Below are positions 5,671-35,983 of a stretch of 35,983 nt of DNA, one piece after another (position 1 is the first letter of the stretch; every line of letters starts with the position of its first letter). The position numbers were made by a program, and so were the translations under genes. Location of the stretch: positions 1-35,983 of the IMG/VR virus record IMGVR_UViG_3300031974_003661. One strand, 5' to 3'. The DNA comes from a virus. Under the pieces are notes generated by a model. It was given only the letters and a program-made list of their open reading frames with translations. It ran no database searches and had not been told where the DNA came from.

Positions 5671-7590
5671 ATGGATAAGAAAGAAATCCGTACACTGACA
5701 GGGTCTGTCGAAGTCCGCGAGGGCTCCGATAAGAATCCTGTTATTGAGGGCTATGCTGCCGTATTTAACGATGAGACGGTCATCGGAGGGCAGTTCGCCG
5801 AACGCGTTGCTCCTGGTGCCTTTGAGGGTGCCCGGATGGACAACACTGTTGCACTGTTCAACCACGACATCAATCAGCCCCTGGCCCGGGTAGGGCGAGG
5901 CTTGGAGATTAGTGTTGATGAGCGTGGGCTCAAGTATCGTTTCGAGGTTGGAAACCAATCCTACGCGAAAGACCTCGTAGAGAATATTCGCATGGGTAAT
6001 GTCAGTACAAGTTCCTTCGGATTCACCGTGCGTGATGACGAGTGGGAGCGCCGGGACGACGGTCTTAATTTGCGCACGATTAAAGAAGTAGATCTCTTGT
6101 TCGACGTTTCTCCAACAACTCAGGGTGCCTACCCGACCACTGAAGTAGGCCTACGCAGCATGGCGACTGCACTCGCTAATCAGGCAATGGCACTGATTGA
6201 GGATGAGGAGATTCGCGCTGAAGAAGAAGAGGAAGAGGAGAAGGAAGAGAAGGCGTATGGCGCCAAGGACGAGGACGAAGAGATGGAGGAGAAGGCAGAA
6301 GACGAAGACGAGGAGAAAGAGGAGAAGATGATGGAGGATGAGGAAGAAGAAGAGGAGAAGGAGGAAGAAGAGGAAGACGAGGCTGAAGAGCGCGTTGACC
6401 AGCTTGTTGACACCTCCATCCTTCCGCATCCTTACGCACTTGAAGAAACAACCCCTGAGCCGGAGGCTCGCAATTCTAATAATTCAAACTCCAATACCAT
6501 GGAAAACGAAAAGAATGCCCCGGCAATCTTGCAAAGCCGGGGTGACAACCAAGCAAATGTCCAACAGCGTTACAGCTTTGGAAAGGCCCTTCGTGAGGCC
6601 GCATCAGGCAAACTCTCTGGCCTGGAAGCAGAGATGAACCAAGAGGCCCGCAGTGAGTTTACCGACGCAAAGGTGAACGTTGCTGGCGGCATCAGCGTCC
6701 CGAGCTTCCTCACGGAGAATCGTGCTGCTCTTGCCGTCTCCGGAACGGACACTAACGCTACCGCCTTCGGTGGTACGATTGGTAAGATCGACCAGGGCTT
6801 CTCCGGTTTCCTGCACCCGAACGACATCGCCACCCAAATGGGTGTCCGCGCTGTGACCGGTGTTAGCGGAAACGTTGTTTTCCAAGTGCCGAAGGGCCCT
6901 CCGGGAACGTCTGACTCTACTAATGAAGCCGCATCCTTCGCGGCTAGCAACATGGCGTTTACTGCCGTTGATATGGGTCCCAAGCGCCTGTCCGCTCACG
7001 TTCAGGTGACCGAGCAGCTCTTGGCTCAGACCTCTGACGACCTCGGTGCTTTCGTTGCCGGTGAGATTCGCAAGGCTGTGGACGCGAAGTTCAACGACAC
7101 TGTTGTTGCTGCCATTGACGCAGCCGCTGATAACCGCGCCGGTGGTACGATTGCTCAGTACGCCGTTGCTACCATGAACGCCCTGCACCTTGAGGAGGAC
7201 CTGATGGAAGACAACGTGGATAGCGCAAACATCCGCGTCCTTGCTAGCCCGACGGCTTACCGTCAGAACCGTCAGCTCTCTCTCGATGCTGGTTCCGGTC
7301 TGCTGTTCGCCTCTTCCCCGGCTGACCGCCGCGAGGTTTTGGGTTACAACACGGTCATCAGCAGCAGTGTTGATTCCGGTCACCTGTACATGATGGACGC
7401 TACCCGCGCCGTCCAGTGCCGGTGGGGTGGTTTGAACCTGATTATCGACCCGTACACCGATGCTGACAAGGGCGTCGTCCGTATTATCGCCAACGTGTAC
7501 CGGCAGTTCGCCTGCCTGACGAACACGACTAACCGTGGCGCAGCCCCTAACGCCTTCGGTGGTTACGGCTTCACCGGTTACCGCGACTAA
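5671..7590 (+). CDS. Fused prohead protease and major capsid protein
   Basis: One 639-residue frame joins two normally separate proteins. Residues 1-165 are an HK97-type (S78) prohead protease, with catalytic H65 in FNHD and the serine in STSSFGF at 112-118. Residues about 177-243 are an extremely acidic E/D/K linker. Residues about 285-639 are an HK97-fold major capsid protein with KALREAASG, NEAASFAASNM and PKRLSAHVQVTEQLL. The acidic part may act like the capsid's scaffolding delta domain and be cut away by the protease. An ATG at 6499 (residue 277) could also start a capsid-only product. Confidence 0.9.
   Translation: MDKKEIRTLTGSVEVREGSDKNPVIEGYAAVFNDETVIGGQFAERVAPGAFEGARMDNTVALFNHDINQPLARVGRGLEISVDERGLKYRFEVGNQSYAKDLVENIRMGNVSTSSFGFTVRDDEWERRDDGLNLRTIKEVDLLFDVSPTTQGAYPTTEVGLRSMATALANQAMALIEDEEIRAEEEEEEEKEEKAYGAKDEDEEMEEKAEDEDEEKEEKMMEDEEEEEEKEEEEEDEAEERVDQLVDTSILPHPYALEETTPEPEARNSNNSNSNTMENEKNAPAILQSRGDNQANVQQRYSFGKALREAASGKLSGLEAEMNQEARSEFTDAKVNVAGGISVPSFLTENRAALAVSGTDTNATAFGGTIGKIDQGFSGFLHPNDIATQMGVRAVTGVSGNVVFQVPKGPPGTSDSTNEAASFAASNMAFTAVDMGPKRLSAHVQVTEQLLAQTSDDLGAFVAGEIRKAVDAKFNDTVVAAIDAAADNRAGGTIAQYAVATMNALHLEEDLMEDNVDSANIRVLASPTAYRQNRQLSLDAGSGLLFASSPADRREVLGYNTVISSSVDSGHLYMMDATRAVQCRWGGLNLIIDPYTDADKGVVRIIANVYRQFACLTNTTNRGAAPNAFGGYGFTGYRD
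6499..7590 (+). CDS. Possible internal start: major capsid protein alone
   Basis: Met277 of the fused gene lies at the exact boundary between linker and capsid domain (MENEKNAPAIL). It is preceded by an A/T-rich stretch at 6474-6498 that looks like the leaders of other genes here and contains out-of-frame TAATAA. A start here would give a 363-residue capsid protein without protease. Such dual output would solve the stoichiometry problem, since a capsid needs hundreds of shell subunits but few proteases. This is inference; proteolysis of the fusion is the alternative. Confidence 0.35.
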   Translation: MENEKNAPAILQSRGDNQANVQQRYSFGKALREAASGKLSGLEAEMNQEARSEFTDAKVNVAGGISVPSFLTENRAALAVSGTDTNATAFGGTIGKIDQGFSGFLHPNDIATQMGVRAVTGVSGNVVFQVPKGPPGTSDSTNEAASFAASNMAFTAVDMGPKRLSAHVQVTEQLLAQTSDDLGAFVAGEIRKAVDAKFNDTVVAAIDAAADNRAGGTIAQYAVATMNALHLEEDLMEDNVDSANIRVLASPTAYRQNRQLSLDAGSGLLFASSPADRREVLGYNTVISSSVDSGHLYMMDATRAVQCRWGGLNLIIDPYTDADKGVVRIIANVYRQFACLTNTTNRGAAPNAFGGYGFTGYRD

Positions 7591-8522
7591 TGTTCTATGA
7601 GGTCAATCGCACAACGTCACTAGGTGACGACACGTTCGTGAGCTCCGCTACCATGCGGGCTCACGTTCGTGCGATTGATTCTTCCGAGGACAGTCTTCTG
7701 CGCACCTATCGCAACGCTGCGGTAGACTACTTGCAGAACCTGTCCGACCGAGTTCTCGGTCTATCTACTGCGAAGGTGCTCCTGGACTACTATGAGTTCA
7801 GGGCACCTTTTCGCATTCAAAAGCTTCAGGACATCACCTCCATCGATAAGATTGAGTACCTGAAGGACGGTGCCTTCACCGTGTACACCCCGGACATTCC
7901 GGATGATGTTGAGCATGGGCATCACCTGAGTGTCGCTCTCACGTTTACAGGCGGCACTCCTGTCAATCGCGTCATCGAAGTTGATGCCGCAAGCACCACC
8001 ATTGACGCTACCTTAGGCGCTGCTGACACTCATGGTTCAACTATTGCTTATTGGAATCTGTATAAGTACGATTTCTCTAGTGAGGAATACGTGCTTGTTT
8101 CTTCACAGCAAGATAGCGTTCCGGTCAGCGTCAGTCACACTTGGGAGGACCTTGACGTAGGTCTGTATCAGGCTGAATTCAGTTCGCAAAGCAGCCAGGA
8201 TGGTCACTCCCATAGCAGCTACAAGTACTTCGCCATCAGCAACGGCACATTGTTCAAGCAGACGGCCTTGTACGATCAGTACCCGGCTCAGTTTGACTTC
8301 TCGGAGCTTTGTGAACTCGTCGACTGCGATACCGACACCAAGTTCCGCGTGACGATGTCCTGCGGCACCGATTGGGCCAACCTTCCGATGCAGTACACCC
8401 AGGCTGCCCTGCTACTCATCGGTCACTACTACAATATGCGCGAAGCCGAAGCCATCGGTGGTATCACCACTGAGGTCAAGGAAGGCGTTCGTCGCTTGGT
8501 CATGAGTGTAAGGCAGTACTGA
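7590..8522 (+). CDS. Head-tail connector (gp6-like)
   Basis: This 310-residue protein has an N-terminal helical part, 'MRAHVRAIDSSEDSLLRTYRNAAVDYLQNLSDR', typical of HK97 gp6-type DNA-entry connectors. The C-terminal 'QYTQAALLLIGHYYNMREA' is the helix that ends these proteins. Between them, about residues 100-215 form a beta-rich insert with many His/Ser/Thr, making the protein longer than the usual 100-200 residues. It follows the capsid gene with a one-base overlap and precedes the head-closure gene. Confidence 0.8.
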   Translation: MFYEVNRTTSLGDDTFVSSATMRAHVRAIDSSEDSLLRTYRNAAVDYLQNLSDRVLGLSTAKVLLDYYEFRAPFRIQKLQDITSIDKIEYLKDGAFTVYTPDIPDDVEHGHHLSVALTFTGGTPVNRVIEVDAASTTIDATLGAADTHGSTIAYWNLYKYDFSSEEYVLVSSQQDSVPVSVSHTWEDLDVGLYQAEFSSQSSQDGHSHSSYKYFAISNGTLFKQTALYDQYPAQFDFSELCELVDCDTDTKFRVTMSCGTDWANLPMQYTQAALLLIGHYYNMREAEAIGGITTEVKEGVRRLVMSVRQY

Positions 8523-33391: not shown

Positions 33392-33802
33392 TCAGTCCTC
33401 GAGCAGGGCCTCGAGACCTGCAATCAGGTCGTCAACGTCGACGGTCTCGTTGAGACGGTCGGGAGTCTCGAGCATGAACTTGACACACTTGAAGACACGG
33501 GACGCGTAGCGAATCCGACCCTTCGCATTGTACGAGGGCTTGAGCTTCATGACGAGCTCGTCGTCGAGTTGCCCGAGGTCGAGAGACACGCCCTTGTGTC
33601 GGAACGTGATGAGGAGCGGGGCGCTACAGGTGCAGTACCGTGACCCGACTTCCTTGTAGAAGTCCATACGGTGGAACACCTCGGAAAGTAGCGTACCGAC
33701 CTGACGCTTGAGGGATTTGGTGGACGTACCGAACTTGATTTCGGTGGCTTGCTCGATGGACATGTCGCCATCGATGGACTGTTGGTAAATGCGAACTTGC
33801 AT
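33392..33802 (-). CDS. Unrecognised protein, first gene of the leftward unit
   Basis: This 136-residue protein starts MQVRIYQQSIDGDMSIEQAT after the leader ATATAAACCCAATACA, the clearest non-Shine-Dalgarno start in the window. The middle has 'VGSRYCTCSAPLLITFRHKG' and the end is helical and acidic (VDVDDLIAGLEALLED). No family is recognised. It lies between two tRNA-like minihelices and is the nearest gene to the structured RNA region, so it may be its functional partner. Confidence 0.6.
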   Translation of the reverse strand: MQVRIYQQSIDGDMSIEQATEIKFGTSTKSLKRQVGTLLSEVFHRMDFYKEVGSRYCTCSAPLLITFRHKGVSLDLGQLDDELVMKLKPSYNAKGRIRYASRVFKCVKFMLETPDRLNETVDVDDLIAGLEALLED

Positions 33803-33839
33803 TGTATTGGGTTTATATGATGGGACGGAGTTGTCCCGT

Positions 33840-34620
33840 CGCGGCCCCAGGAGGGATTGCACCTCCTCGAAGCAACTATGCGGGGCCTTGTCAACAGGGA
33901 GTCCGGATACTGACTCAATCCCGGGGTGGCCCGTATCCTGTTGACGTACTTAGATAATTTCCGCGCGGTGCAGGCCTGCTTATCGTGACAGAACGCCCCC
34001 GGGGGGACTTGTGGAAACTCCGGGAATTACATCGACTTTTCGAGTCTGCAACCCGCACCTGTTACGCGTCAGTGGCAACCCGTCACGGCAATCCATGCGG
34101 ATTCCGTCTCCCGGTTACATGACACCTGCACCTTTGGTCTTTACACCCGACCTCGGGTCAACGCACCGGCACCCTACTTTGTTAGCGTATTTTTTGCCCC
34201 ATTGGCTTTCCCTGTAGTTGCACCCCCACTACCTCAAATCTCATTGAGGGGTCAACCCGCACCCCCTCCCGGATTCCCGGACTTTAAAGGGGGTAACCTT
34301 TGCACCCACTTTCGTGGGTATCGCTCCGGGGGTTATGTACCTCCGGGGCTACTTCATAACGCTTAAGCTTTGCGCCTACGTTGTCGTCAGTACGTCAATG
34401 AACGTGCGACCTGTTGACGGTTGATGTGCGGTAACACATCCGGAGGAACCCTTCCTTCTTCAACCCCTCACCCTTGCGGGTGACCTTTCAACGGGAACCC
34501 TTGCGGGTCGTGGTTGCCTATCGTCTCACCGGTGGTCTGTTTTCCCGGCTTGTCATCCGAGGGGCGTTCCCTCCCGTTTGACGATGTCAAAGGAAGTGCA
34601 CAGGTTCCATACTCACAAAT
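33840..34620 (-). ncRNA. Candidate large structured noncoding RNA
   Basis: This ~780-base region has no credible gene, but hairpins follow each other almost without a gap. Read on the minus strand, three close with GNRA tetraloops: TCACCC-GCAA-GGGTGA (34468-34483), ACCC-GCAA-GGGT (34497-34508) and ACCCAC-GAAA-GTGGGT (34304-34319). Other stems lie at 34577-34591, 34423-34440, 34393-34419, 34332-34360, 34261-34294, 34232-34249, 34085-34107 and 33890-33946. GNRA loops appear only in minus orientation, fixing the transcribed strand. Size and phage setting recall the large ornate GOLLD and ROOL RNAs, but I cannot match either. Confidence 0.7.
33843..33887 (-). ncRNA. tRNA-like minihelix B
   Basis: On the minus strand GGCCCC pairs with GGGGCC, and stacked on it AGGAGG pairs with CCTCCT around the 7-base loop TGCAATC, which has T-loop form except for one base. 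The 3' strands of both stems are adjacent, as in the acceptor and T arms of tRNA; only 16 bases replace the D and anticodon arms. It sits 41 bases before the first leftward gene and may be the 3' end or a terminator of the large RNA. Confidence 0.4.
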
Positions 34621-34627
34621 CGACCTA

Positions 34628-34881
34628 TCTGCCTGGTTTTCAGTGAGTTACGCGGTTTCATTTAGGCGTAACTTATTGATTCTCAGGCATTTGCATTTTT
34701 CAAAGTAGGTAAATGTTAAAATTGTGTTAAAGGGGTCTAACTTGCTGAATATCAATGAGTTACAAGGTCATTTTTTTTTAGGTCATCTGTAACTGCCTGA
34801 CTTTCAGTGAGTTATGGGCATATGACGTATCTGCCTGGTTTTCAGTGAGTTAGGCCTAAGTGTCTGAATATCAATGAGTTA
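34628..34881. repeat. Iteron-like repeats, six copies
   Basis: Six copies of an 18-23 bp element share the core TCARTGAGTTA. Direct copies lie at 34628-34650, 34745-34762, 34793-34814, 34831-34852 and 34862-34881, and one inverted copy at 34669-34689. Two subtypes exist: CTGCCTGGTTTTCAGTGAG and CTGAATATCAATGAG. Regularly repeated elements of this size in AT-rich DNA are typical initiator-binding iterons or operator sites. They lie just upstream of the large RNA. Confidence 0.8.
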
Positions 34882-34885
34882 GCTA

Positions 34886-35315
34886 ATACCCGCGATAAGT
34901 AGGTATACCCGCGTATGCACAAAAAAAATGACATACGCCAGGAAAAGTGAAATTTTAACATATCACCGACATAAATCATTCGTCGACAGATTCGGGAGAT
35001 TCGTCGAGACGGAAAAATGATTATACGTCCCATATTTTTTTGGTCGACGAAATATGGCAATTCGTCTATGGAATTAGGGTGAAAAAAGTGAATTTCAACG
35101 TTATACGCCTACCCCATAGTGCACCCCCATTGAGGGGCGAAAGTGGCTTAATGACCCCTTAAAATGGCCCTGATGGAATCCTGGATTTTCCAAATATTCG
35201 TGCAACTTTTTTTTCTAAATAGTTTTCCACAATTGTCGAACGTATTCTTTTTTTTCGTATACGCACACCACCGTGGACGGCTATAGTGTATTTCCAGGAC
35301 ATATGCAAATTTTCA
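34886..35315. other. AT-rich intergenic DNA
   Basis: No convincing gene is present in this stretch; the longest frame (34842-35060, minus) spans the iterons and has poor composition. It holds homopolymer T and A runs near 34920, 35035 and 35210. Scattered TTCGTCGA-type boxes occur at about 34979-35007 and 35041-35070, related to those in the repeats near the right end. A pair of 8-bp inverted repeats is listed separately. Confidence 0.6.
35030..35057. repeat. Inverted repeat around a GTCGAC core
   Basis: CCATATTT at 35030-35037 is matched by its complement AAATATGG at 35050-35057, with a 12-base centre that holds GGTCGACG. It may be a protein-binding site or a cruciform in the control region. 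Confidence 0.5.
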
Positions 35316-35351
35316 GCTCCTATTTATTTGTAGGAATAGTCTGATGAATAG

Positions 35352-35436
35352 GTAGGATATATCCTACAGTGTGTAAGATAACTCCTACAATAATATGTAA
35401 GAATAGTCCTACAATCTCATGTAGGAATACTCCTAC
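35352..35436. promoter_or_regulatory. Array of four 16-bp operator palindromes
   Basis: Four hyphenated palindromes of the form GTARGAnnnnTCCTAC lie at 35352-35367, 35373-35388, 35397-35412 and 35421-35436. Starts are 21, 24 and 24 bases apart, about two helical turns, so bound dimers would sit on one face of the DNA. They lie just downstream of the leftward promoter candidate, where bound protein would block transcription. A related but reversed pair (TCCTA/TAGGA) lies at 35317-35334. Confidence 0.8.
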
Positions 35437-35457
35437 ATAACACATTATAAAAGATTG

Positions 35458-35485
35458 CAAAGATACAACATATCAATCAATCCAA
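35458..35485 (-). promoter_or_regulatory. Leftward Bacteroidota-type promoter
   Basis: On the minus strand TATCTTTG (35465-35458) is a perfect match to the TAnnTTTG -7 element of the Bacteroidota primary sigma factor. A TTG at 35485-35483 lies 17 bases upstream, slightly closer than usual. Transcription would start near 35450 and run left across the operator array towards the iterons, the structured RNA and the leftward genes. Confidence 0.6.
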
Positions 35486-35547: not shown

Positions 35548-35843
35548 ACATATAATCATTTGCATATGTTTCGTCGACGACAGGTAGAAGTTCATCGAAC
35601 AATAATGACCGTTCGTCGTGCAATTATATGTTATCACATATTTTTAACATTTGACCGATGTGTTTTCACATATAATTATTTGGATATGTTTCATCGATGA
35701 CAGGTCAATGTTCATCGGGGTTATCACCGGGTTCGTCGAATTATATGTGTGTTGCAACACAATAAATGTATAATCACTTGCATATGTTTTGTCGATGACA
35801 GGTGCCGGTTCGTCGTGGATTATAGGGGGTTCGTCGAATTATA
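35548..35843. repeat. Three ~100-120-bp tandem repeats with palindromic core
   Basis: Repeats begin at 35548, 35668 and 35766. Each starts with ATATAATNATTTGNATATG-like sequence, then a palindromic box (TCGTCGACGA, TCATCGATGA, or TGTCGATGACA), then GACAGG. Further boxes of the form TTCGTCG or TTCATCG follow in each copy. The last copy stops abruptly at 35843 where GC-rich DNA begins. The region looks like a replication origin or a partition/regulator-binding cluster. Confidence 0.75.
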
Positions 35844-35983
35844 CGGCGCGCAGGCGGGGCGCGGCGGCGGGGCGGGGTCGAGCGGGTGGGCGGGGAAAAG
35901 CTGTTGAACCGGGCGGGGACGACGTTTCGCAAACTGCCCGATGCGGACAAGGCGGGCCTGGATGCCGGCAAGGCGGTGGCGCT
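35844..35983 (+). pseudogene. Fragment of ArsC/YffB-like protein, probably foreign DNA
   Basis: From 35844 GC content jumps to roughly three quarters. In one rightward frame the end reads VERVGGEKLLNRAGTTF followed by RKLPDADKAGLDAGKAVAL. This is the central part of ArsC-family (YffB/Spx-like) reductases, which contain GWxxLLNRxGTTWRKL. The codon use fits high-GC proteobacteria rather than this phage. Two positions where Trp is expected read GGG. It is best explained as a chimeric contig end. Confidence 0.6.

Follow-up and report, generated by a model that had tools for sequence, protein, structure and literature searches.

The window, meaning the whole stretch of DNA analysed here, comprises the 35,983 bases of one IMG/VR record. 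Genes for terminase, portal, tape measure, amidase, primase-helicase and DNA methyltransferase mark it as the genome of a tailed phage; no integrase was recognised among the scanned genes. The genes of this phage are without Shine-Dalgarno sites, in keeping with a putative Bacteroidota host. The region under study, read on the minus strand, is flanked on the right by the AT-rich control region and on the left by the first gene of a leftward early operon. A preliminary description had reported about 780 bases without a credible gene, differing in composition from the region to the right. Both observations were borne out: no credible gene was found in 33863-34841, and the GC content is about 0.55 in the element compared to 0.31-0.39 beside it. 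Regarding conserved protein coding, all six frames were compared with the homologous stretch of a related phage (G001), and no conserved ORF emerged; matches occurred in several frames of both strands and only where the DNA itself is conserved. The 3' boundary of the element was located at about 33809-33819, directly 5' of the ATG and slightly beyond the limit first described. The following features were assigned:

33392..33803, minus strand: first gene of the early operon, 136 aa, function unknown, 67% identical in G001
33809-34600, minus strand: whole element, putative non-coding structured leader ahead of the first early gene (ATG at 33803)
33809..33968, minus strand: conserved 3' domain of ~160 nt, covariance model R1, 40 pairs kept
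33819..33840, minus strand: terminal hairpin, separated from the ATG by 15 nt, with 2 two-sided changes
33843..33887, minus strand: tRNA-like element (acceptor-like stem, reduced D-like hairpin, T arm)
33890..33945, minus strand: three-way junction of P1 (33945-33937/33898-33890), P2 (33933-33930/33925-33922) and P3 (33916-33912/33903-33899)
33970..34600, minus strand: 5' part, ~630 nt, of low conservation, containing collinear motif islands
34303..34320, minus strand: GAAA-tetraloop hairpin, TACCCAC-GAAA-GTGGGTG
34461..34517, minus strand: probable four-way junction of an outer helix, hairpin 1 (GCAA), the CC-GUUGAAA-GG hairpin and hairpin 2 (GCAA)
35458..35485, minus strand: candidate upstream promoter of the Bacteroidota type, TTG-N17-TATCTTTG, pattern match only

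The product of the first early gene had no match in Pfam and PHROG, and its AlphaFold model (mean pLDDT 56) was too poor for use. The promoter motif TTG-N17-TATCTTTG was not found in G001. On the minus strand, no intrinsic terminator was detected inside the element or between the element and the first early gene. Thus, a leader co-transcribed with the early operon is the simplest reading; to yield a free RNA, such a leader would have to be processed.

Several repeats were observed in the neighbourhood. Directly upstream of the RNA (34622-34884) the window carries five iteron-like repeats in direct orientation, each ~32 nt long (consensus around CTGCCTGGTTTTCAGTGAGTTA), and one inverted copy at 34666-34689; in G001 one partial match was found (7819, inside its RNA). 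Palindromes of the form TGTARGAnnnnTCCTACA with a period of ~24 nt are present in three copies in the window (35372-35443) and in seven copies in G001 (L026 6650-6780, 7355), and in none of the wider relatives; possibly, they are operators or partition sites. The minus strand of the AT-rich control region (34630-35400) folds with a z of -5.8 relative to shuffles, an excess probably due to the palindromes. A 75-nt repeat with TTCGTCGA and CATATGTTTCGTCGACGACAGG motifs occurs three times in 35551-35843. The sequences of the window ends (1-63 and 35844-35983) are absent from close relatives. The left one diverges from L106 at base 64 and the right one changes abruptly to very GC-rich sequence; they are either assembly chimeras or host flanks.

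Homologues of the element were found in two near-identical IMG/VR phages, G001 (IMGVR_UViG_3300025886_000160), reached via the primase-helicase (77% identical protein), and G045 (3300009507_000137), reached via the terminase and motif scans. Both have a 79% identical 3' block at the same place, followed by the same downstream gene (67% identity). Within the element they differ from each other by about a dozen bases, and hence the comparison comprises in effect two independent sequences, the window and one homologue. A scan of IMG/VR with an exact 16-base core motif located the element only in the contigs G001 and G045, and a scan of viral contigs with a degenerate core motif gave the same distribution. 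The covariance model R1 matched three of 39 related records (window, G001 and G045), while the 36 others were without a copy; this absence is weak evidence, since many of the 39 records are fragments without the control region. The element is also absent from the near-complete relatives G003, G008 and G009, whose primases are 53-55% identical. DNA searches of named phages and plasmids and a genome search with the neighbouring protein gave no match. Within these searches the element is narrowly distributed and confined to three phage contigs. The long intergenic gaps of G003, G008 and G009 were considered as analogous RNAs and rejected, as they hold a conserved pair of small ORFs (53 and 58 aa). 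In L055 (18164-18501) and the G003 and G009 homologues these adjacent ORFs belong to the early operon and share 86-97% DNA identity; such a pair is easily overlooked by gene callers using a length cut.

The search for compensatory changes in homologues, proposed with the preliminary description, gave a strong result for the 3' 160 nt. The two sequences were aligned with MAFFT by sequence alone, and a consensus with 40 pairs was obtained. All 40 predicted pairs are kept in the homologue; 11 are changed on both sides, one on one side and none is broken. This outcome was reached by none of 500 shuffles. When the partners were slid by 1-3 columns as a control, 0-1 two-sided changes and 40-54% paired cells resulted. 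In both copies the stability exceeds that of shuffles (z -4.2 and -3.5). Selection on the fold of the 3' domain is therefore strongly supported by the compensatory changes seen in this comparison. From 5' to 3' the domain consists of the three-way junction P1-P3, the tRNA-like element and a hairpin near the ATG. P1 contains three compensatory pairs, and the junction has an invariant core of 39 nt (GATACGGGCCACCCCGGGATTGAGTCAGTATCCGGACTC). GGATAC/GTATCC in the junction, invariant in both sequences, could form a predicted alternative or pseudoknot pairing. The terminal hairpin has no U tract and no terminator-like site.

The tRNA-like element combines an acceptor of 7 bp (GGCCCCG/UGGGGCC), stacked directly on a T-like stem of 5 bp, with a D-like hairpin of 3 bp (GCA-UAGU-UGC), whose first G is common to the acceptor strand GGCCCCG and which is followed by the linker UUCG. 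The T arm reads GGAGG-UGCAAUC-CCUCC, with a 7-nt loop UGCAAUY. The acceptor is followed in both phages by GCGA (33842-33839), at the position of the NCCA of a tRNA. Helices 4-6 contain six two-sided changes and no broken pair. The minimal substrate recognised by RNase P is an acceptor stem with a T arm stacked on it; structurally, the element offers such a stack of ~12 bp with a T loop and compensatory changes. Run alone, the G001 copy matched mascRNA-menRNA (RF01684) best among Rfam families, end to end, with 21.7 bits and E 0.0077 (gathering threshold 42.5). The next matches, at 6.7-9.7 bits and below threshold, were the T arms of the Tymovirus tRNA-like structure and of permuted tmRNA. For the window copy the best match was Plastid-ycf2 on the plus strand, with the same acceptor and T-arm stems and below threshold; the mascRNA model was not among the matches listed for this copy. 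In our reading, the Plastid-ycf2 family may resemble an antisense tRNA. As no family threshold was reached, the element is tRNA-like in architecture and a member of none of these families. It has no anticodon arm, and ARAGORN, run on the window and on stretches of G001 and G045, detected neither a complete tRNA nor a complete tmRNA gene; the nearness to tRNAs, mentioned earlier as frequent for GOLLD and ROOL, thus does not apply here. The element could also be just a junction capped by a T loop.

The 5' part is far less conserved. It has words in common with G001 7590-8133 in the same order, e.g. CCCGTTGAAAGG, TTGACGTA and GCAAAGGTT. The z of its minimum free energy (MFE) relative to shuffles is -2.65 in the window and +0.62 in G001, i.e. 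the stability of the G001 5' part is not above that of shuffles. The region had been described as filled with hairpins, the count of which is at chance level (13 vs 12.9 in dinucleotide shuffles). It had further been stated that three stems carry GNRA tetraloops only on the minus strand. The GCAA, GCAA and GAAA hairpins of the minus strand do exist: GACCC-GCAA-GGGTT (34509-34496), TCACCC-GCAA-GGGTGA (34483-34468) and TACCCAC-GAAA-GTGGGTG (34320-34303). Two other, weaker GNRA-closed stems are present on the plus strand. In 1000 dinucleotide shuffles three GNRA hairpins compare with 0.66 expected (p=0.027), and two with stems of at least 6 gave p=0.006. At a place comparable to that of the GAAA hairpin, matched by order only, G001 has the hairpin GCG-GAAA-CGC and G045 instead GCA-GATGA-TGC. 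The four-way junction showed the same topology in separate single-sequence MFE folds of the window and G001, and it is built around the invariant CCCGUUGAAAGG of its CC-GUUGAAA-GG hairpin (34495-34484). In hairpin 2, aligned by sequence only, four of six pairs are changed on both sides and none is broken, a result reached by 32 of 500 shuffles in this two-sequence test; these compensatory changes are suggestive evidence. From the comparison of the two sequences, the four-way junction is probably real. A Sankoff-type alignment of the whole 5' part was also tried, and its score exceeded that of shuffles (31985 vs 27090 +/- 1318). Its 62 compensatory pairs are within the shuffle range of 50-96, and the structure-driven alignment was hence discarded as evidence. 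Our claim is limited to the 3' domain, which is well supported, and the probable 5' junction; an ornate fold of 800 nt is not claimed.

The preliminary description was confirmed in its observation of a real, non-coding structured region. The total folding energy of the element is above chance, with a z of about -3 to -3.7 on the minus strand and -2.2 to -3.5 on the plus strand, and the reverse-complement consensus of the 3' domain is equally good (41 pairs, 11 two-sided). Owing to the weaker plus-strand stems, the GNRA loops alone do not settle the strand either. Evidence for the minus strand comes from the operon direction, the GNRA loops and the T-loop/mascRNA match, and not from folding energy. 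The interpretation as a large structured RNA is partly supported, namely for the selected structure of the 3' 160 nt and one 5' junction, and unsupported as regards membership in GOLLD, ROOL, OLE or HEARO. With the Rfam covariance models these families were absent at gathering thresholds and at E<=10, both in the window and the homologue, and no other Rfam family reached its threshold in either. The sequence comparisons thus point to a previously unclassified phage RNA element, without a match to a known RNA family.

As the likeliest mechanism, with slightly less than even chances, we consider a leader that is co-transcribed with the early operon and cut by RNase P at the tRNA-like element, whereby the upstream RNA is freed. 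The 3' fold is seen in the covariation; what we say of processing and function is inference. Transcription would begin in the AT-rich control region and run leftward through a long structured leader into the early operon. Host RNase P would recognise the 12-bp acceptor/T-arm stack and cut 5' of 33887. This cut would split the early mRNA, with the tRNA-like element as its new 5' end, from the upstream RNA (about 34600-33888), whose 3' end would be stably capped by the three-way junction; the protected mRNA end may set early-gene expression, and the freed upstream RNA would be the active product. The logic would be that of MALAT1/mascRNA, in which a long non-coding RNA receives its 3' end through an RNase P cut at a tRNA-like element. 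The bacterial enzyme processes OLE RNA, pre-tmRNA and phage-induced regulatory RNAs, and the MALAT1 3' end is formed at a tRNA-like structure (PMC4919922). The processing reading is supported by the 40 of 40 kept pairs, the likeness to mascRNA and T arms, the lack of a terminator, the same gene position, the 5' junction and the RNase P precedents. It is weakened by GCGA in place of NCCA, the sub-threshold Rfam scores, the negative ARAGORN result and the restriction to two independent sequences, and furthermore by the 5' z of +0.62 in G001, the shuffle-like 5' compensatory counts and the strand-neutral folding energy.

Ranking after RNase P processing, a purely cis-acting element is a possible, less probable explanation. 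The 3' domain would then control translation of the first early gene or transcript stability, uncut and with no free RNA arising. The best-conserved domain lies directly against the start codon, covariation is seen in the terminal hairpin, the downstream gene is the same in both lineages and a terminator is lacking. A structural initiation signal is conceivable because the genes have no Shine-Dalgarno sites. However, a local translational element would not need some 630 nt of RNA upstream, with a conserved junction of their own. As a further explanation, the RNA could accumulate during lysis as a free, possibly oligomeric particle of the GOLLD or ROOL kind. The similar length (about 780 nt), the phage setting, the GNRA hairpins and a conserved 3' next to a less conserved 5' region, as in GOLLD (PMC12286853), are in line with this, but the lack of an Rfam match to GOLLD or ROOL in both the window and the homologue, also at E<=10, the absence of tRNA genes nearby, the position in an early operon instead of a separate gene and the single 5' sub-domain shown to be structured make it improbable.

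Even less credit is given to an immunity or antisense RNA in the style of P4 CI or P1 c4, processed from the early leader and stopping early transcription. The only match to C4 antisense RNA (RF01695) is on the plus strand, with 17.8 bits against a threshold of 45; no integrase was recognised in the scanned genes and the minus strand has no internal terminator. These points stand against the position of the leader at the head of the early operon, the phage-induced regulatory RNAs among the RNase P products (PMC4919922), the complementarity to leaders known in P1, P7, N15 and P4 (PMC7567579) and a long-range self-complementarity of GAACGCCCC (34569-34561) and GGGGCGUUC (33999-33991) within repeat I1. 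A DNA element, i.e. an origin or packaging site with hairpins that function as cruciform or single-stranded DNA instead of RNA, is very improbable. Iteron-like repeats and palindrome arrays lie directly to the right and the plus strand folds equally well, but the iterons are not kept in G001, and the tRNA-like T loop and the mascRNA similarity are on the minus strand. Moreover, conserved joining strands and multi-way junctions, as present here, are typical of RNA.

Returning to RNase P processing, the element may represent a large phage RNA of a new class, in which a cut by RNase P at an internal tRNA mimic generates the 3' end and releases an ornate RNA from the early transcript, as a phage counterpart of MALAT1 processing; this proposal is tentative and we hold it to be less probable than not. 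To our knowledge, large structured RNAs recur in phages, few classes are known and the function is settled for none of them. A covariation-backed 3' module with a tRNA mimic provides a simple biochemical test with RNase P, which neither GOLLD nor ROOL offers. If true, narrowly distributed phage leaders outside Rfam would be recognisable from two homologues.

Among known systems, mascRNA/menRNA of MALAT1/MEN-beta (RF01684) resembles the element in acceptor and T arm, the reduced middle and the 3'-terminal place in a long non-coding RNA. In contrast, the score here is below the gathering threshold of 42.5, GCGA replaces NCCA and a coding message follows; common descent is not implied. With the Tymovirus tRNA-like structure (RF00233) and tmRNA a T arm of the GGGUGCAAYUCCC type is common, but only the T arm matches and the element is without acceptor pseudoknot or message-like domain. 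The P4 CI and P1 c4 leader RNAs are likewise positioned in early operons and processed by host enzymes including RNase P; they are much shorter, and no C4 match was found here on the minus strand. GOLLD exceeds 800 nt in many members and has a conserved 3' and a variable 5' region, sometimes with tRNAs in the linker (PMC12286853). The present element is also a large phage RNA, with a 79% identical 3' domain and a far less conserved 5' part. It differs by the lack of a covariance-model match and of a true tRNA nearby and by its place directly ahead of an early operon without a terminator. By analogy with ICP1, which has a non-coding transcript of ~800 nt in a phage without tRNAs (PMC7567579), a large phage RNA outside the usual setting would not be unprecedented.
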